Positions 29,376 to 37,045 of a stretch of 37,227 nt of DNA are shown one piece after another. This stretch comes from Anaerolinea sp. (lineage in GTDB: Bacteria > Chloroflexota > Anaerolineae > SpSt-313), in assembly GCA_020725765.1 (NCBI GenBank), contig DYEI01000017.1, positions 1 through 37,227 on the forward strand, read 5' to 3'. The notes below the pieces were generated by a model that was given only the letters and a program-made list of their open reading frames with translations, did no database searches and had not been told where the DNA came from. The translations under genes were made by a program, and so were the position numbers. Position 1 is the first letter of the stretch. Each line of letters starts with the position of its first letter.

Positions 29376-29404
29376 TTGACTCTAGACCTCAATGATGTTA
29401 CAAT
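29376..29404 (+). promoter_or_regulatory. Sigma70-type promoter of the CstA-family gene
   Basis: TTGACT (29376-29381), a 17-base spacer and TACAAT (29399-29404). The expected start is A29411, giving a leader of about 199 nt before ATG 29610. Confidence 0.8.
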
Positions 29405-29609: not shown

Positions 29610-31355
29610 ATGAACGCTCTCCTCGTGCTACTGCTCGCATGTGCCGCCGTCGTCTTGGGCTATGGCTGGTATGCCAGAAAGATCGACCGTGAGGTCATCC
29701 AGCCGGACGACAAGAAGGCCACGCCTGCCAAGATGTTCATGGATGGCGTGGACTTTATGCCGACCAACCGGAACGTCCTCTTCGGCTACCAGTTCAAGTC
29801 CATAGCCGCGCTAGGGCCGATCCTCGGCCCCATCGTCGCCGTGCAGTTCGGATGGCTGCCGGCTCTCCTGTGGATCCTCCTCGGAACGATCTTCATCGGC
29901 TGGGTGCAGGACTATGCCAGCATCATCGTCGGTGCGCGCGAGGAGGGTCAGACCTTCGGTGCGCTGAGCTACCGGCTCATTTCCCCTCGCGCCCGCACGA
30001 TCCTCCTGGTATTCATCTATTTCTACCTGTGGTTGATCATGGGCTCCTTTGGCGTGCAGGTCGGCTTCAACCTCCTCACGCAGCCGGCCGTGCCGCTCGG
30101 AGTCCTGGCCACCATCTTGCTGGGCGTCCTAGCCGGGCAGATGACCTACAAGTGGAAGCAGGACATCATACTGACCACCGTTGTCACCGTCGTGCTCTCG
30201 TTCGTGGGCATCTGGCTCGGGACGCTTCCGGCAGTGCGCGACTTTTTCTCGGCGATCCTCGGCTACCGGATGGTCGAGGGCAAGCTTGTGTCGCCCACGC
30301 TCTTCCTCGCTGTGACGCAGGCCAAGCTCATCGGCAGCCTGGCCGTCGTGCTGATCTGCTACTTCGGCGGCGTGCTGCCGATCTGGCGATGGGCTCAGCC
30401 CATCAACTATGTCGCCTTCTGGATCGTCTTCCTCGGCGTGGTGGGTGGCGTGCTCGGGCTCCTGATCTGGCGTCCGGACATGGGTGATTTTCCTGTCTTC
30501 ACGCGCTTCAACCCGGGGGTTGGCCCGCTCTGGCCGATCCTCTTCGTGACCGTGGCGTGCGGAGCGATCTCGGGATGGCACAGCCTGGTCTCCAGCTCGG
30601 GCAGTGCACGGCAGCTGGAGAAAGAGACTGATGCTCTCTTTGTTGGTGGCGGTGCCATGTACCTGGAGATGTTCTTTGCGATCATCGCCTATCTGACGGC
30701 AACGGTCGCGTTCGGTGGTCTGAAGGGCTATCAGGATGCCGGCGGTGGCGCCGCGCCCGCGAGCGTGTTCTCGACCGGCCTGGCGACCTTTATGAACAAG
30801 TGGGGCCTGCCGATGGACCTGGGCAAGGCCTACGGCGCAGTGTTCCTCACCCTGATGGCCCTCACGATCATGTACCTGGTCGTGCGCTTCATGCGCGTCG
30901 CCAGCGCCGAGGCGTTGGGGGACCGCATCCCCATCCTGCACAACGTCCACGTAGGCACGATCGTGGCGCTGGTGCTCACCCTGATCCTGATCTGGATCGT
31001 GCCGTTCCTGCAGATATGGGTGGTGTTCGGTGCGGCGAACCAGCTCATGGCCTCACTGGCACTGCTGCTGATCTCGCTGTGGCTGCTGTCCAGGGGCAAG
31101 AACTTCCAGTGGTCGTTCTGGCCCTTTGTGTTCATGTTCGTGACGACCATCGCTGCCCTGCTGTGGAACGCCTACTCAGCGCTTCTGGTAAAGCTGCCCC
31201 AGGCCAAGACGGCCGACGCCTTTGCTGCGCAGCTCATCATCGGCATTGTGGCTCTCGTGCTGGTAGTGGCTGCGGGCCTTCTGGCCTACGATGGCCTGCG
31301 GGCTCTGTTCCGTGCACGGGCCGCTGCGGCGGCGCCAGCGGCTGCCCGGGAGTAG
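29610..31355 (+). CDS. CstA-family carbon-starvation/peptide transporter
   Basis: A 581-residue multi-pass membrane protein of the CstA family. Motifs in order are GYQFKSIAALGPILGPIVAV, then FGWLPALLWILLGTIFIGWV with QDYASIIVGAREEGQTFG (residues about 70-125). Many hydrophobic segments run to about residue 560, including SGWHSLVSSSGSARQLEKET and GGAMYLEMFFAIIAYLTATV. Known family members import peptides or pyruvate under carbon limitation; which applies here is not visible. It is shorter than E. coli CstA (about 700 residues), as in many CstA relatives of other phyla. ATG 29610 follows AAGGAG (29594-29599). It has a strong promoter and a long leader with a palindrome. A hairpin at 31385-31412 separates it from the ATPase module. 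Confidence 0.9.
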   Translation: MNALLVLLLACAAVVLGYGWYARKIDREVIQPDDKKATPAKMFMDGVDFMPTNRNVLFGYQFKSIAALGPILGPIVAVQFGWLPALLWILLGTIFIGWVQDYASIIVGAREEGQTFGALSYRLISPRARTILLVFIYFYLWLIMGSFGVQVGFNLLTQPAVPLGVLATILLGVLAGQMTYKWKQDIILTTVVTVVLSFVGIWLGTLPAVRDFFSAILGYRMVEGKLVSPTLFLAVTQAKLIGSLAVVLICYFGGVLPIWRWAQPINYVAFWIVFLGVVGGVLGLLIWRPDMGDFPVFTRFNPGVGPLWPILFVTVACGAISGWHSLVSSSGSARQLEKETDALFVGGGAMYLEMFFAIIAYLTATVAFGGLKGYQDAGGGAAPASVFSTGLATFMNKWGLPMDLGKAYGAVFLTLMALTIMYLVVRFMRVASAEALGDRIPILHNVHVGTIVALVLTLILIWIVPFLQIWVVFGAANQLMASLALLLISLWLLSRGKNFQWSFWPFVFMFVTTIAALLWNAYSALLVKLPQAKTADAFAAQLIIGIVALVLVVAAGLLAYDGLRALFRARAAAAAPAAARE

Positions 31356-31384: not shown

Positions 31385-31412
31385 GGTGAGGGAGCCGCTG
31401 TGCTCCCTCACC
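31385..31412 (+). terminator. Hairpin after the CstA gene, overlapping a start region
   Basis: A perfect 11-bp stem, GGTGAGGGAGC (31385-31395) with GCTCCCTCACC (31402-31412), and a 6-nt loop. No T-run follows (TGATCTCAGC), so it may be a weak terminator, an attenuator, or an RNA stability element. It contains the SD-like GAGGGAG and the possible start GTG 31400 of the next gene, and could therefore control its translation. Confidence 0.5.
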
Positions 31413-31432
31413 TGATCTCAGCAAGGTGCAGA

Positions 31433-31777
31433 GTGGGAGAGCAGGGCGGCTGCAGCCGTTGGGGCGACGGGTGGGCAGCGGAGGGTACTCCTCCGGCGCG
31501 CGCACCTGGACGCCTGCGCAGGGCTATCCGCAGCATTGGCCAGTTCCTCTTCGGCATGACGACCTATGAGCTGGCGCGTGAGGCACGGAGGGCGCAGGCG
31601 GAGCTGCACCGGCTGTTCCTGACCCTTGCATTCGGGGATCTGGTCGGCCTGCCGGTCCATCCCTCCCCTATCAGTCTGCGCCTCCTTCCGTACGTGGCGC
31701 CGGGCCTTCCCGGCTGGCGACGAAGTGTGTCACGACCGCGGGATATCCTCGATCTCTGCACCGAGGATGTGAGCTAG
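31433..31777 (+). CDS. Small conserved-motif protein, copy 1 (ArsA-like module)
   Basis: A protein of about 114 residues that I do not recognise. From about residue 33 it aligns with the next gene: RRAIRSIGQFLFG against RRSLWDSFKSVLYG, then LFLTLAFGDLVGLPVHP, SLRLLPYVAPGLPGWRR and RPRDILD. The shared core is GDL-x-G-x-P, SLRLLPYV-x-P and W(R/K)R. The middle is hydrophobic enough to insert into or lie along a membrane, flanked by basic residues. The start is uncertain: GTG 31433, or GTG 31400, which has a better ribosome-binding site but sits in a hairpin loop; both give a low-complexity N-terminus lacking in copy 2. It lies 12 bases before copy 2 and upstream of two ArsA/Get3-like ATPases, so it may be a receptor, adaptor or client of them. 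Confidence 0.65.
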   Translation: MGEQGGCSRWGDGWAAEGTPPARAPGRLRRAIRSIGQFLFGMTTYELAREARRAQAELHRLFLTLAFGDLVGLPVHPSPISLRLLPYVAPGLPGWRRSVSRPRDILDLCTEDVS

Positions 31778-31789
31778 GAGAGGAAGTCG

Positions 31790-32065
31790 ATGTCCGAAGG
31801 CGAAGAAAGGGTGCGACGCAGCCTGTGGGATTCGTTCAAGAGTGTCCTCTATGGCATGGCCGGGCACGACATGGCTCGCTTCGCGCTCAAGACGCGCGGC
31901 AGTATGGAGCACCTCTTCATCCTCATCACGATGGGTGACCTGCTGGGCGTGCCCATCCTGCCCCCTTACTACTCGCTACGTCTCCTGCCGTACGTGGTGC
32001 CGCAGATCAGCACCTGGAAACGTCGGATGCTGCGCGAGCGCGATCTGACCGATGCGCTCGCCTGA
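31790..32065 (+). CDS. Small conserved-motif protein, copy 2 (ArsA-like module)
   Basis: A 91-residue paralogue of the preceding gene and clearly translated: ATG 31790 follows AGGAGAGGA. The N-terminal part (residues 1-35) is charged and helical with VRRSLWDSFKSVLYGMAGHD. A hydrophobic segment HLFILITMGDLLGVPILP (about 41-58) is followed by YYSLRLLPYVVPQISTWKRR and RERDLTDALA. The pattern of one hydrophobic span followed by a basic tail suggests a small membrane-associated protein, possibly a re-entrant hairpin. The invariant residues in both copies (GDL-G-P, SLRLLPYV-P, W, RD) point to a shared binding surface. No database family comes to mind. It ends 97 bases before the first ATPase gene. 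Confidence 0.8.
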   Translation: MSEGEERVRRSLWDSFKSVLYGMAGHDMARFALKTRGSMEHLFILITMGDLLGVPILPPYYSLRLLPYVVPQISTWKRRMLRERDLTDALA

Positions 32066-32162
32066 CAGGGCGTCCGGCCGCGGCTCCTGACGCGTGCCGC
32101 GCCCGGCTGGCCACGCGGAGGGGAGGGCGCGCCGCTCGTGCCACATGAGATGGGAGGTCACC

Positions 32163-33137
32163 TTGTCGCTGCGACGCTTCTTTGAGGAACATCCAGATCG
32201 GCGCTACATCATGTTTGGGGGAAAGGGCGGGCTCGGGAAGACCACCTTCTCGGCTGCGACCGCCTACTGGCTGGCCCGGCAGGGGCATAGGGTCCTCGTG
32301 TTCTCGGTCGACCCTCAGGCCTCGCTCTCGGACATCTTCCAGCGGGATATCTTTGGCCGCGGCCCGGTAGAGATCATCCCCAACCTGTATGCTCAGGAAA
32401 TCGACGCGGACCAGCGCATCCGGGCCTTCCAGGATGAGATCCGCGAAAAGATCAAGAGCATGTATGGACTGGACGAGTGCCCGGAGGAGATCGAGCGGTA
32501 CATGCAGGCCGCGGCTGGCGAGCCGGCTATGGAGGAGTCGGCGATCTTTGATGCGGTAGTCGACATTGTCGTGAGCGCTGAGTACGACTACTACATCTAC
32601 GATCTCGTGCCTCTAGGGCATGCTCTGTACTACCTGAGCATGGGGAGCATCTACGACGAGTGGATCAACAAGATCACCCGCCTGCGGGAGGAGATGGCCG
32701 AGTACGCGCAGGTCGCGGCTATCATGCAGCGCTCACGGCAGACCGAAGAGGACCAGATACTGCTCGAGCTGCAGGATATCAAGCGCCGGATCAACACGTC
32801 GTCCAGCATCCTCACCGATCGCCAGAAGACGGGCTTCTTCTTTGTGATCATCCCTGAGGAGATGGCCATCCTGGACACGATCAAGGCCGCGAGCCTGTTC
32901 GCCAAGTACGACGTTCCACTCTGTGGCTATATCGTGAACCGGGTGATCCCAGCCTCGCTGGCAGACCAGGCGATTCCCGAATACCTGCGACACCGGCTGG
33001 AGATGCAGAGGGGTCACCTCGAGCGGATCCGCCGGGAGTTCGGGAGCGACGTGCTGGCCGAGATCCCCGAGTTCGAGCGCGACATCACCGGCCTCCCCAT
33101 GATTGAGCGCATGGCCGAGGCCATGTTCGGGGCATAG
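32163..33137 (+). CDS. ArsA/Get3-family ATPase 1 (catalytic residues kept)
   Basis: A 324-residue soluble P-loop ATPase of the ArsA/Get3 branch. The deviant Walker A is FGGKGGLGKTT (signature Lys21, Lys26). Switch I is VFSVDPQASLSD with Asp50, where the family has DPAHSLSD, so the His is replaced. Switch II is YDLVPLGHALYYL (Asp147, Gly152, His153), a variant of DTAPTGHTLR. The family-typical PAMEESAIFD and the late CGYIVNRV strand are present. There is no CxxC zinc motif and no arsenite-type cysteine set. I chose TTG 32163: GGGAGG lies five bases upstream and the product MSLRRFFEEHPDRRYIMFGG lines up with ATPase 2. Upstream in-frame ATG 32145 and GTG 32094 are alternatives. It ends 10 bases before ATPase 2. 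Related ATPases deliver tail-anchored proteins or drive pumps; its own role is unknown. Confidence 0.88.
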   Translation: MSLRRFFEEHPDRRYIMFGGKGGLGKTTFSAATAYWLARQGHRVLVFSVDPQASLSDIFQRDIFGRGPVEIIPNLYAQEIDADQRIRAFQDEIREKIKSMYGLDECPEEIERYMQAAAGEPAMEESAIFDAVVDIVVSAEYDYYIYDLVPLGHALYYLSMGSIYDEWINKITRLREEMAEYAQVAAIMQRSRQTEEDQILLELQDIKRRINTSSSILTDRQKTGFFFVIIPEEMAILDTIKAASLFAKYDVPLCGYIVNRVIPASLADQAIPEYLRHRLEMQRGHLERIRREFGSDVLAEIPEFERDITGLPMIERMAEAMFGA

Positions 33138-33147
33138 GGGGCGGGGC

Positions 33148-34122
33148 ATGATCACTCAGAGCATGAGCGGCTTTGTCGCAGAGCATCCCAACCTGAAGTA
33201 CATCTTTTTTGGCGGCAAGGGAGGTGTCGGCAAGACGGTTCTGGCAGGCGCGGCGGCATTGTGGTTCGCGAGGAGTGGCAAGCGAACACTGCTGGCCTCC
33301 ACCAACCCGGTGCACAGCCTCACGAGCCTGCTCGGTCAGGACGTCTTTGGCCGGCACACGCCAGTGGCAGGGGTGCCCAATCTGCACGCCTTTGAGATCG
33401 ACACGCGGGACACAATCGAGCGCTCGAAAAGGGAAATCCGCGAAAAGGTCGAGTGGTTCCTGCGCTATGCCGAGATCAAGACCAAGGCCGACGAGTTCGT
33501 CGAATCGGCCACCATGAACCCGGCCTTTGAAGAGTCGGCCATGTTCGAGAACATGATCGACCTCATGTTCGAGGATCAGTATGAGGTCTATGTGTTCGAC
33601 ACGGCCCCGACGGCCAACGCGCGGCGTCTTCTCGGGATGTCCAGCGTCTACTCGATGTGGGTGAACAAGATGGTGCAGAGCCGGCAGGAGGCGATGTCGC
33701 TGCGGGAGCTGCTCTCCTACAGCCGGAGGAAGAAGGAGAAGGATCCGCTGCTCGAGTATCTGCTGAGCCTTCGCGAGCGGATGGACCGGGCGAAGGGGCT
33801 GCTCACCCGGCCGGAGAAGACCGCCTTCTTCTTTGCGACCCTTCCCGAGGCGCTGCCCATCGCTGTGATCCGTCGCTTCATCGGGTGGTTCGAAGAGTTC
33901 GGGATTCCGGTGGGCGGGGTCGTCGTGAACATGGTGATCGACCCGCGGGTGCTCAAGGAAGACACGCCAGACTTTGTGCGGAACCGCGTCGCCATGCAGA
34001 GCGAGTACCTCAGGGAGATCGAGCGCACGTTCCCGAACGTCCGTGCCATCGTGCCGCTGTTCGATACCGAGGTGCGTGGGATCCCGATGCTGAGCCAGAC
34101 GGCAGAATGCCTGTTTGCTTGA
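33148..34122 (+). CDS. ArsA/Get3-family ATPase 2 (switch residues altered)
   Basis: A 324-residue paralogue of the preceding ATPase. Walker A is FGGKGGVGKTV (signature Lys24, Lys29), so nucleotide binding is expected. Switch I reads ASTNPVHSLTS: Asn53 replaces the Asp of the DPAHS motif. The equivalent Asp in yeast Get3 (D57) is the one whose Asn mutant is used as a hydrolysis-defective form. Switch II reads FDTAPTANARRLL: Asp151 stays but Gly-His is replaced by Ala-Asn. The rest is well conserved (PAFEESAMFENMIDLM, EKTAFFFATLPEALPI, GGVVVNMVIDPR), so this is not a decaying gene. It has a single Cys near its C-terminus and no zinc motif. ATG 33148 follows GGGGGCGGGG; ATG 33163 is an alternative. 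I infer a regulatory or slow-hydrolysing partner of ATPase 1, probably as a heterodimer. Confidence 0.88.
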   Translation: MITQSMSGFVAEHPNLKYIFFGGKGGVGKTVLAGAAALWFARSGKRTLLASTNPVHSLTSLLGQDVFGRHTPVAGVPNLHAFEIDTRDTIERSKREIREKVEWFLRYAEIKTKADEFVESATMNPAFEESAMFENMIDLMFEDQYEVYVFDTAPTANARRLLGMSSVYSMWVNKMVQSRQEAMSLRELLSYSRRKKEKDPLLEYLLSLRERMDRAKGLLTRPEKTAFFFATLPEALPIAVIRRFIGWFEEFGIPVGGVVVNMVIDPRVLKEDTPDFVRNRVAMQSEYLREIERTFPNVRAIVPLFDTEVRGIPMLSQTAECLFA

Positions 34123-34128
34123 GAGGCT

Positions 34129-34734
34129 ATGGACCCGTATCTGACGCTTGTGCTGGTGCTGCTTGTCTTTTCACTCATGCAGGGTGGGCTGAGCCTGATG
34201 CGGCGAGAGCCTCTCTCAGGACGGCAGGTCGCGGAGACCCTGCTCGCGGGCGTGGTGATCATGGCCATCGCGAGGGCGGCGGAGGCGCCCCCTCCGGCGG
34301 TCCTTTTCTTCATGGTCCTGTACCTTGTGACGATGCGTGCGCGCATCCTGGTGGACATTGCCAACGGGCTCGCCCGGCGGGGGCGTGTGGGGGTTGCCTC
34401 CCGGCTGTATGACCTGGCCCTGAAGCTGGCGACCGTGCCCGTCGAGCGGCTGACGGTACGGGCGAACCAGGGGGCCGTGTTGCTCCAGCAGGGGCAGGTC
34501 GATCGGGCGGTCGGCGTCTTTGAGGATATCCTGAAGGCGCCGGCAGCGTTGGGTGTGAGGCTGGAAGCTGCCTGCCGCTGCAACCTGGGCCTGGCTTATC
34601 TGCGGCAGGGACGCGTTGGCCAGGGGCGTGCCCAACTTCACGAGACGGTTGACCTGCTGCCGGGCTCGCTCTATGCCCAGCGGGCGCGGCTGGCCCTCCG
34701 CCGTCTGGAGGGGGAGGGCCCTCGGGAGGGCTAG
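34129..34734 (+). CDS. Membrane-anchored TPR protein (ArsA-like module)
   Basis: A 201-residue protein with three N-terminal hydrophobic segments (about residues 5-24, 36-52 and 55-72) and a cytoplasmic-type helical domain of two to three TPR-like repeats (about 80-195): SRLYDLALKLATVPVERLTV, QGAVLLQQGQVDRAVGVFED and NLGLAYLRQGRVGQGRAQLH. TPR domains bind peptides or partner proteins, so it could dock the ATPases or their clients at the membrane. ATG 34129 lies six bases after the stop of ATPase 2, with GAGAGG upstream, so it is almost surely in the same transcript. It is the last gene of the module and converges on the DUF6504-like gene. I do not recognise a named family. Confidence 0.78.
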   Translation: MDPYLTLVLVLLVFSLMQGGLSLMRREPLSGRQVAETLLAGVVIMAIARAAEAPPPAVLFFMVLYLVTMRARILVDIANGLARRGRVGVASRLYDLALKLATVPVERLTVRANQGAVLLQQGQVDRAVGVFEDILKAPAALGVRLEAACRCNLGLAYLRQGRVGQGRAQLHETVDLLPGSLYAQRARLALRRLEGEGPREG

Positions 34735-34803: not shown

Positions 34804-35055
34804 TCAGTCGTAGATGCGGGCGAGGTGCCAGCGCTCCCTGAGCCGATCGTAGTAGAGGATGCAGAGCAGGCCATCGTCGGTCTGCACCTTGTAGTAGTCC
34901 CGCCATACTTCCTGCTGCCACCATCCGGTGTGCAGGCGCCAGGAGTTGCAGAGGGTAGCGACGCGGTGCGTGCGGCCGGCCCAGATAAAGGTCCGTGGCC
35001 CCTCATTGTCCTCGGAGACGGTGACCTCGGGTCCTACAGTCCAGGAGTGGGTCAT
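34804..35055 (-). CDS. DUF6504-like small protein of the mutagenesis cassette
   Basis: An 83-residue protein rich in Trp, Arg and Tyr: FIWAGRTHRVATLCNSWRLH near residue 23, then WWQQEVWRDYYKVQTDDG and LLCILYYDRLRERWHLARIY to the end. This short all-beta-looking pattern resembles the DUF6504 family, which is typically encoded beside or fused to ImuB-type polymerases. Its ATG overlaps the imuB stop codon in an ATGA arrangement, so it is translated with imuB. Its activity is unknown; a small DNA- or ImuB-binding accessory is the simplest reading. The stop is 69 bases from that of the convergent TPR gene. Confidence 0.75.
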   Translation of the reverse strand: MTHSWTVGPEVTVSEDNEGPRTFIWAGRTHRVATLCNSWRLHTGWWQQEVWRDYYKVQTDDGLLCILYYDRLRERWHLARIYD

Positions 35056-36236
35056 GGCATCATCTGGAATCGCTCATAGGTGAAGCGCTGCTCCGGGAGC
35101 AGCGCTTCCGGGCTGATTGCGCGTGCGCGCTGGAAACAATCAGCGCCATAGCGAACCGCGAGGGCTGCGAGCGTCGCATCAAGGTCTGCAGCCAGTTGCC
35201 GCTCCATAAAGAGGTCCAACTGGTGCCCGGCCTCCAAGCGTGTGAGCCGGGTCAGCGTCACTGTCAGGCTCTGCACAGCAGCCGACATCCTGGCCAGAAG
35301 AGCCATGATCGCTGCCTGCAGGCGGCCCGGGTCGGCAGTTGGCTCCTGCAGGACGTGGCGGTCCGTTACTGCCGGGCCCTTCTCCATCTCGGTCATCAGC
35401 AGCAGCTCCTGGCAGGCCAGGCCTTCGCGCTGCAGCGAGTCACAGAGGGGACGCAGCAGGCGCTCCACGGCCCTTGCCAGGAGGGATTGATCCCGCACCG
35501 GGTCGTCAAGGCTGGTCGTTGCCCAGAGCTGGCGCTCTTCTTGATGGCGCAGGAGCGGCCGGTTATCGGTGCCTCGAGCCCGGTGCCAGCTCTCACAGCC
35601 CGGCCTGCCAAGACGGGATTGCACGGCATCGTAGGGCAGCTCGGAGTACTGTTCCAGCGTTCGGATCCCGAGCAGGCGCAACTGACGGTGGCTTTCCGCA
35701 TCCAGAGGCAGAAGTGTGACCGGCAAGTCCTGTAGAAAGTAGCGCTCGGCCCCGGTCGGCACGACCAGGACCTGGCCAGGGCAAGCCTGCGAGGCTGCCG
35801 CTTCGGCGACGAACCTGCCGTCGGCAATGCCAATGCCCCCTGCCAGGCCCAGGCACTCTTTTGCGGTCTGCCCAACGGCCAGTCCGAGCTGCAGCTCGGT
35901 CCTGTAGTGGCGCTCCAGGCCTGCGGAAGGAAAGCAGGCTAATCCCTCCCGCGCTGATTCAATCAGAGGACTGAACCGGCCGAGGGCAGCCAGCAGCTGT
36001 CGCCAGGCCAGTCGGGGCCTGGCTTCCTCCATTTCCTGAATACAGGCTTGTGGGCAACGCACCAGCGCAAGCCTCTCCGTCTGGCCGGGCTGCACGCCGG
36101 CCAGGCTGGCCTCACTCGAGCAGGCCCGTACCCGGCCGCCAACCGTCAGGATGACGGGGCGATCCGAAGGTGCGCGCTCGTGAGACCTGGCCCAGGCGAG
36201 CCAAAAGTCGTTGATGGAAAGGCAAAGCACTCTCAT
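35052..36236 (-). CDS. imuB: ImuB-like catalytically dead Y-family polymerase homologue
   Basis: A 394-residue Y-family DNA polymerase relative. It starts MRVLCLSINDFWLAWAR, where active enzymes have a DxD motif: here Ser and Asn stand in the acidic positions. The second acidic motif (SxDE) is also missing from its expected place in GLACFPSAGLERHY. Thus it should not polymerise, as in known ImuB. The thumb/HhH region has DLPVTLLPLDAESHRQLRLLGI and LEQYSELPYDAV. The little-finger region follows, then QLDLF at residues 339-343, a match to the beta-clamp-binding consensus. The start ATG 36236 overlaps the imuA stop (ATGA), and its end overlaps the DUF6504-like gene the same way. Known ImuB bridges the clamp to DnaE2 or another polymerase in SOS mutagenesis; no dnaE2 is in this window. 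Confidence 0.87.
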   Translation of the reverse strand: MRVLCLSINDFWLAWARSHERAPSDRPVILTVGGRVRACSSEASLAGVQPGQTERLALVRCPQACIQEMEEARPRLAWRQLLAALGRFSPLIESAREGLACFPSAGLERHYRTELQLGLAVGQTAKECLGLAGGIGIADGRFVAEAAASQACPGQVLVVPTGAERYFLQDLPVTLLPLDAESHRQLRLLGIRTLEQYSELPYDAVQSRLGRPGCESWHRARGTDNRPLLRHQEERQLWATTSLDDPVRDQSLLARAVERLLRPLCDSLQREGLACQELLLMTEMEKGPAVTDRHVLQEPTADPGRLQAAIMALLARMSAAVQSLTVTLTRLTRLEAGHQLDLFMERQLAADLDATLAALAVRYGADCFQRARAISPEALLPEQRFTYERFQMMP

Positions 36237-37045
36237 GGCTCGTCTTCGCTCCACGTGTTGTTGTGTCCCTGCACGGTGCCATCAAGGGCGATAGAGATCG
36301 TCGCTTGTCGTGCGGGTGCCCCCAGCCTGTTCTTGGCCACGACGATAGTTGCCGTATAGCCGGAGATATCCTCCCACGGGCGTTGAATCCACCGCTCACA
36401 GGTCACGCTCAGGCGCAGCGCAGCGTTCTCAGGCAAGGGGAGCCGCCCCGGGTAATCCAGGGCCGATGAGAGACTCTGGCCGGCCTCCTGTAGCGTCAAA
36501 AAGAGGGCGACGCAGGGTGTAGCGGCCAGCGCCGCGCTGAGGAGGCGCAGGCCTGAGGCCAGGGACCGCTCTGGGCCGGGGTCGGCCGGCAGCCAGGCCT
36601 CCGGCCGGGCATCGAACACCACCAGCTGCAGGCCACGGCGGCGCACCAGGTTGGCGGCAATCGCCAGGGCCTCCGCTCCGCTGTGCGGACGGATGATCAG
36701 GAGGCGGTGCAGGTCCACACCGCAGAGCCGGGCGTACTCGGGGTCCAGCGTCCATCCCAGGTCAAAGTATGCGCCGATACCTCCGCCGCGCTGGGCACTG
36801 GCCAGAGCAATCAGGGCTATCGTGGTCTTGCCCGAGGTAGCGGGACCCAGGAGTTCGGTGATCTGCCCGCGGGGGAAGCCACCGGTGCCGGTAGCAGCAT
36901 CCAGTGCCGCAAAGCCGGTAGGCAGGGTGGGGAAGGAGGGAGCAGCCTGTGACAACAGCCGCAGGGCCCGCGGGCCCCATTGACGTTGCACCTGGCTCAC
37001 GGCGAGCTCCAGGCGACGATACCGGGAGTGTTGCTGGGAGGCCAT
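36233..37045 (-). CDS. imuA: ImuA-like RecA-related protein of the SOS mutasome
   Basis: A 270-residue RecA-fold protein. The Walker A motif is GPATSGKT (residues 67-74), preceded by LPTGFAALDAATGTGGFPRG and followed by IALIALASAQ. The Walker B-like strand is LQLVVFDARPEAW. It lacks the full RecA C-terminal domain and is shorter than RecA, as expected for ImuA/SulA-like proteins of mutagenesis cassettes. Known ImuA interacts with ImuB and modulates recombination and translesion synthesis. ATG 37045 has CGGAG upstream. It is the first gene of imuA-imuB-DUF6504, each pair overlapping by ATGA. The LexA-box promoter at 37090-37119 lies directly upstream, so SOS induction is expected. Confidence 0.85.
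   Translation of the reverse strand: MASQQHSRYRRLELAVSQVQRQWGPRALRLLSQAAPSFPTLPTGFAALDAATGTGGFPRGQITELLGPATSGKTTIALIALASAQRGGGIGAYFDLGWTLDPEYARLCGVDLHRLLIIRPHSGAEALAIAANLVRRRGLQLVVFDARPEAWLPADPGPERSLASGLRLLSAALAATPCVALFLTLQEAGQSLSSALDYPGRLPLPENAALRLSVTCERWIQRPWEDISGYTATIVVAKNRLGAPARQATISIALDGTVQGHNNTWSEDEP

Follow-up and report, generated by a model that had tools for sequence, protein, structure and literature searches.

The window analysed here is a stretch of 37,227 nucleotides (37 kb) of Anaerolinea sp. (contig DYEI01000017.1), and it contains an operon of six genes on the plus strand. The first gene, cstA (29610-31355), encodes a transporter of 581 residues from the CstA family of pyruvate/peptide transporters (PF02554, E 2.6e-112). 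It is followed by the genes of small protein 1 (CstX paralogue 1; 31400-31777), small protein 2 (CstX paralogue 2; 31790-32065; 91 residues), ATPase 1 (32163-33137) and ATPase 2 (33148-34122), both of 324 residues and of the TRC40/GET3/ArsA family, and a membrane-anchored tetratricopeptide repeat (TPR) protein of 201 residues (34129-34734). The intergenic gaps are, in this order, 45, 12, 97, 10 and 6 bases, which is compatible with a single transcription unit. A promoter scan gave a single match, at 29376-29404, which was not above chance. A preliminary description of this DNA had recognised the last five genes on one strand, i.e. two small paralogues, two ATPases and a membrane TPR protein, as one unit. 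This was correct apart from slight corrections of the starts; the beginning of the unit was wrong, however, as cstA, 45 bases upstream, had been overlooked.

The start of small protein 1 is uncertain: it is either the GTG at 31400 or the GTG at 31433, and the conserved part begins at about 31511. The two small proteins are, as had been described, paralogues with a hydrophobic core (40% identity; E 2.5e-16 with small protein 2 as the query); this core comprises about 20 moderately hydrophobic residues in both. In small protein 2, the core MEHLFILITMGDLLGVPILPPYYSLRLLPYVVPQISTWKRRMLRE is near-invariant, and the identity between phyla is 74-88%. Neither protein has a match in Pfam. With the NF041419 model of the cory-CC-star proteins, whose curated cut-off is 80 bits, small protein 2 scored 33.6 bits (E 2.8e-8) and small protein 1 scored 18.3 bits (E 1.7e-3). 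The C-terminal Cys-Cys of cory-CC-star is missing from both; small protein 2 ends in ALA. In addition, a profile of small proteins 1 and 2 recovered RefSeq-annotated cory-CC-star proteins of Cytobacillus and Paracoccus (1e-14 and 1e-11, respectively), and hhalign linked the close and distant sets of small proteins with a probability of 98%. Judged by these comparisons, the window small proteins are homologues of cory-CC-star and not members of NF041419.

Two other candidates for homology were rejected. YbdD (PF04328) has the position after cstA and a short G-M...D motif in common with the window small proteins; despite this, the hhalign probability was 0.3%. HcsL and HcsS (halo-CC-star), encoded beside haloarchaeal arsA, showed no homology to them. 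The small-protein profile P0002 gave zero matches against plasmids. It should be mentioned that a Cys-Cys-stop ends small partners of CstA or ArsA that are unrelated to each other, namely YbdD (..RCC or ..KCC), cory-CC-star (..RCC) and halo-CC-star (..CC) (L120, L123, L225, L229, L223, L224, L245); it is not present in the window-type small proteins. A common function of the Cys-Cys in these unrelated families is possible.

Gene order and co-occurrence

When 84,980 species genomes were scanned with small protein 2, 347 encoding stretches were obtained. Of these, the top 80 were retained, which makes 81 loci with the window; the 80 were selected for their similarity to this protein, with a bias towards close relatives. 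Most are from Chloroflexota, and others are metagenome-assembled genomes labelled Desulfomonile, Syntrophaceae, Methylomirabilota, Acidobacteria, Phycisphaerae and others, labels that may be wrong. Among the loci with room on the contig, ATPase 1 was found in 78/78, ATPase 2 in 69/69 and a second small protein near small protein 2 in 65/69. The cstA gene lies upstream in 55 of 59 such loci, and the remaining four genomes have it elsewhere. The order cstA, small protein(s), ATPase 1, ATPase 2 is kept in about 100 loci from several phyla; therefore, the module does not arise by chance. The association of the small proteins with the ATPase pair, implied by the preliminary description, is thus borne out: in most relatives the small proteins are accompanied by the ATPases, and a gene set for the export of arsenic or metals was not found beside the cluster in relatives.

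Two co-occurrence tests are free of this selection bias. Among 121 Chloroflexota genomes, 14 have CstA, and a member of the small-protein family occurs in 12 of these 14 and in no other genome (p 8e-15). The two genomes with CstA and no small protein are G137, in which cstA is at a contig end, and G122, which has a partnerless CstA of another branch. Among 297 genomes of Desulfobacterota, the phylum of one locus labelled Desulfomonile (L108), 144 have CstA and 51 have the small protein, and 48 of these 51 have both (p 3e-14). Furthermore, all of the 14 weak small-protein matches (22-38 bits) lie in the order cstA, small protein, single ATPase, and 9 of these 14 distant loci carry an extra membrane protein of about 200 residues. 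In RefSeq, plasmids of Paracoccus aestuarii and Cytobacillus spongiae are annotated with the same succession of carbon starvation protein A, cory-CC-star and ArsA family ATPase, the first two being separated by a hypothetical gene in Cytobacillus. Altogether, distant homologues of the small protein lie in cstA operons with a single ATPase in 16/16 cases.

The N-terminal part of the TPR protein contains two hydrophobic helices (residues 5-23 and 57-75, from hydropathy), and the protein matches TPR_2, TPR_12 and TPR_14 above cut-off. Its gene is found downstream in just 37 of 60 loci with room, and in 0/19 of the Desulfobacterota loci; therefore, it is regarded as accessory. Other genes accompany the operon in relatives. 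In about 24 of them (e.g. L055, L058, L074, L082:4304-4771, L174), a protein of about 130 residues, not present in the window, is encoded between cstA and small protein 1. It has a thioredoxin-like look with C-x-x-C near the N-terminus, and the one example tested had no match in Pfam or NCBIfam. A protein of about 210 residues with one N-terminal membrane helix is found at L070:7129-7923 and 28 more loci, and at L204-L211 and L213. In many Chloroflexota its gene adjoins the operon in antisense orientation, and in single-ATPase Desulfobacterota it is part of the operon. The members tested had no match in Pfam or NCBIfam; by size, topology and position, they may correspond to CstY, a second small protein of about 210 residues described by Castillo and Saier in archaea only (PMC2963123). 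Downstream of the operon in the window, in convergent orientation (34804-37045, minus strand), genes of DUF6504, an ImuB-like Y-family polymerase and a RecA/ImuA-like protein form what looks like an SOS mutagenesis type cassette.

Two unequal ATPases

The most likely start of ATPase 1 is the TTG at 32163 behind GGGAGGTCACC, which has a good GGAGG; the listed open reading frame begins at 32094. Both ATPases pass the TIGR00345 model of GET3/ArsA/TRC40 (225.6 bits for ATPase 1 and 196 bits for ATPase 2, with a cut-off of 135), in agreement with the family first proposed for them. The solved structures closest to ATPase 1 are the archaeal Get3 entries 3zq6 (E 1e-60) and 3ug6 (E 1e-58); for ATPase 2, algal ArsA1 is as close as archaeal Get3. 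The only cysteines are C106 and C254 in ATPase 1 and C321 in ATPase 2. Their positions show that the zinc CxxC and the metalloid-binding cysteines of ArsA are in neither ATPase, as had been noticed before.

The P-loop with its signature lysine is intact in both ATPases. In the alignment to 3zq6, D50 of ATPase 1 (codon GAC, 32310-32312) aligns with the catalytic switch-I Asp of Get3 (D57 in yeast). The switch I of ATPase 1 reads SVDPQAS, and this Asp is present in 96 of 97 loci. The same position in ATPase 2 is occupied, from sequence and alignment, by N53 (codon AAC, 33304-33306) in the motif STNPVHS, and the Asn is found in 94/94 loci. The Asp is present in 16/16 of the single-ATPase systems. 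In addition, DTAPTGH of Get3 is replaced with DLVPLGH in ATPase 1 and DTAPTAN in ATPase 2. It is known that the switch-I Asp of Get3 is catalytic and that the yeast D57N variant binds ATP with no hydrolysis (PMC12506534). By analogy, the Asn in ATPase 2 should stop ATP cleavage.

A quick tree, in which the branches are long, has ATPase 1 and ATPase 2 as sister clades (Shimodaira–Hasegawa-like approximate likelihood ratio test, 98), apart from the ArsA proteins of ars operons, Get3 and the single ATPases. The sister relation and the one-sided Asn therefore point to a single duplication, after which one copy lost its catalytic residue. This is the pattern of an obligate heterodimer, which the two ATPases might form. 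A further Get3/ArsA-like ATPase of 449 residues is encoded at another place in the same genome (C62:4335-5681); with the NosAFP model it scores 153 bits, which is under the cut-off.

CstA and possible roles of the ATPase pair

The AlphaFold2 model of CstA, from 45 alignment rows, has a predicted local distance difference test score (pLDDT) of 86 and a predicted template modelling score of 0.88. Its best matches in the PDB are LeuT-fold transporters (best E 5e-6), and the window CstA is accordingly predicted to be one of these; the same fold has been predicted for CstA by others (PMC10862720). In E. coli, both CstA and YbdD are required for pyruvate uptake, and the cstA and ybdD single mutants retain 13% and 20% of the wild-type level, respectively (PMC5847655). 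YbdD/YjiX (DUF466) is encoded directly after cstA in E. coli, Tsukamurella, Actinomyces, Paraburkholderia, Novosphingobium and Azospirillum. It was absent, at scores over the cut-off, from 121/121 Chloroflexota genomes, including that of the window, and from 297/297 Desulfobacterota genomes. On the CstA tree, the type of partner takes 5 changes, compared with 25.3 for shuffled labels. The YbdD-type CstA proteins form one clade, and so do those with two ATPases when two truncated loci are counted in. It is not claimed that YbdD and CstX strictly exclude each other: many Desulfobacterota CstA show neither in the searches made. Beside cstA on haloarchaeal plasmids (Halococcus, Natrinema), neither the small protein nor the ATPase is found.

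We infer the mechanism, i.e. the complex, the heterodimer, its single active site, the coupling to transport and the substrate, from gene-level statements that are well supported. The operon probably encodes a transport complex in which a heterodimeric ATPase of the Get3/ArsA type drives or gates CstA via two CstX adaptors. The two small proteins would be membrane-peripheral adaptors that link the ATPase with CstA. ATPase 1 and ATPase 2 would form an obligate heterodimer in which both subunits bind ATP; hydrolysis would take place just at the site of ATPase 1, and the Asn would make the site of ATPase 2 binding-only and structural. Binding and hydrolysis of ATP might then open and close the dimer, so that CstA is driven or gated. 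The full proposal, in which a LeuT-fold secondary transporter has been made ATP-driven or ATP-gated by a Get3/ArsA heterodimer that has a catalytic site and a binding-only site and is joined to it by two adaptors, is put forward tentatively, as less likely than not.

Several observations weigh against a CstA complex powered in this way. For E. coli CstA, a pyruvate/H+ symporter, the proton gradient suffices as the energy source (PMC7730263), and many CstA proteins in the tree set are without any ATPase. Because of these two points, ATP does not seem to be intrinsically required by CstA, and the ATPase may regulate or assemble the transporter instead of energising it. Solitary paralogues of the small proteins occur away from cstA and the ATPases; three Desulfobacterota genomes (G320, G377, G413) have such a solitary paralogue with CstA not detected. 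AlphaFold2 gave a poor helical model of the lone small protein (pLDDT 66), and no claim about its fold rests on it. The long branches of the quick ATPase tree also count here. Solitary paralogues were observed in Desulfobacterota (L172, L173, L200, L217-L222) and Chloroflexota (L178, L180, L181). Their neighbours are heterogeneous and without clear theme, and no conserved partner was found; a few adjoin mercuric-reductase-like genes.

Another reading is an energy-state switch, in which the ATPases would shut or open CstA according to ATP/ADP without powering it, the degenerate site acting as a sensor. The invariant binding-only site expected in ATPase 2, the proton-driven transport by E. coli CstA and the context of carbon starvation all fit such a switch; strict retention of the catalytic site in ATPase 1, however, implies that turnover matters, and the switch seems unlikely, if worth keeping in mind. 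Export of arsenic or a metal, with the ATPases driving an unseen ArsB or Acr3, is suggested by the family name ArsA and by the split ArsA pairs of some plasmid ars operons (Alicyclobacillus). It is, however, hardly credible here: no arsB, acr3, arsR, arsC or arsD was found within the window, in line with the preliminary description, the ArsA cysteines are missing from ATPases that fall outside the clade of ars-operon ArsA, and none of the CstA operons of Castillo and Saier contained ars genes (PMC2963123).

The preliminary description had favoured membrane-protein targeting or insertion resembling the guided entry of tail-anchored proteins (GET). In that case, the ATPase pair would bring membrane parts of the CstA complex (CstA itself, a small protein or the TPR protein) to the membrane, and the TPR protein would serve as co-chaperone. 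The archaeal Get3 structures nearest to the ATPases and the missing arsenite-binding cysteines are in keeping with this, and dedicated assembly factors are frequently encoded next to their client. The similarity to Get3 is real as regards the ATPase family; as a function, the GET analogy is not supported. The constant partner of the ATPases is the polytopic transporter CstA, which had not been considered. With its multiple helices it would be served by the signal recognition particle/Sec route, and ATPase-free CstA proteins exist. The operon lacks an insertase, a Get1/2 homologue and a tail-anchored client, the gene neighbourhoods compared contain CstA, the small proteins and the TPR protein, and a general targeting factor would hardly be so strictly tied to one transporter family. 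The TPR gene is optional, and the N-terminal membrane helices of its product are unlike an Sgt2-type chaperone. A GET-like role is thus considered quite improbable. The presence of cstA, a non-arsenic transporter gene, beside the ATPases provides a simpler explanation, which is already in the literature (PMC2963123).

Relation to known systems

Get3 of the GET system has the ATPase family and the fold in common with the window ATPases. The window differs in having no CxxC, no Get1/2-like receptor and no tail-anchored client, in its two unequal ATPases, and in a transporter in place of the insertase. In addition, both subunits of Get3 carry the switch-I Asp, whereas ATPase 2 does not. The mycobacterial BagA and BagB (6bs3-6bs5) are a known pair of adjacent bacterial Get3-like ATPases. 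They were rejected as the closest kin: the E values for ATPase 1 were no better than 4e-7, and the scores were about 50 bits or less, compared with cut-offs of 400 bits (NF053622) and 521 bits (NF053621) for the BagA/BagB models. The ArsA-ArsB pump offers a mechanistic analogy: a membrane transporter is served by a soluble ATPase whose two nucleotide sites are not equal. The window system differs from it in the LeuT fold predicted for the transporter, in the lack of metal-site cysteines, in having two genes instead of one fusion, and in one site without the catalytic Asp. In E. coli, CstA is followed by its small partner YbdD (PF04328, KCU-star family) as in the order of the window; YbdD is not detectably homologous, however, and the E. 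coli system has no ATPase. The cory-CC-star protein of NF041419 is homologous to the small proteins and likewise lies between cstA and an ArsA family ATPase.

The closest system is that of Castillo and Saier (2010), who described 26 operons that contain both cstA and a homologue of arsA, and CstX as a small protein of about 90 residues with one membrane segment, and proposed that CstA is energised by the ArsA homologues via CstX (PMC2963123). Their Cluster 15 contains adjacent ATPase pairs (25-31% identity) with CstA and CstX in Pyrobaculum arsenaticum and Symbiobacterium thermophilum, with two CstX in Pyrobaculum, and the Asp of SXD was replaced by N in some proteins, which was left uninterpreted (PMC2963123). 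No later paper on this system was found in the literature searched. The window has in common with it cstA, a small protein of about 90 residues with a single segment, single-domain ATPases of about 330 residues and the lack of ars genes. Its CstX was equated with that of 2010 by size, position and context, and the Pyrobaculum and Symbiobacterium pairs were likened to the window pair by their published description, not by sequence. The window operon is, to judge from gene content, the CstA-CstX-ArsA system in a two-ATPase form, and the system itself is a known proposal. It differs from the 2010 operons in the D-to-N change fixed in just one ATPase, the TPR gene, CstY-like proteins also in bacteria, and its spread across Chloroflexota, Desulfobacterota and scattered metagenome-assembled genomes of other phyla. 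This breadth, the unbiased co-occurrence, the link to cory-CC-star and the bacterial CstY-like proteins appear to be new, and so do the invariant one-sided Asp-to-Asn change and the sister relation of the ATPase pair.

For annotation, this would mean that a cory-CC-star protein encoded next to cstA is the partner of an ATPase linked to CstA, and that certain pairs labelled "Get3/ArsA" in bacteria belong to neither GET nor arsenic genes. If the proposed coupling is true, it would define a class of coupled transporters without any biochemically shown member. That transporters besides ArsB draw energy from ArsA-type ATPases has been a standing proposal since 2010; the strict conservation and the naturally D57N-type ATPase 2 make it directly testable.

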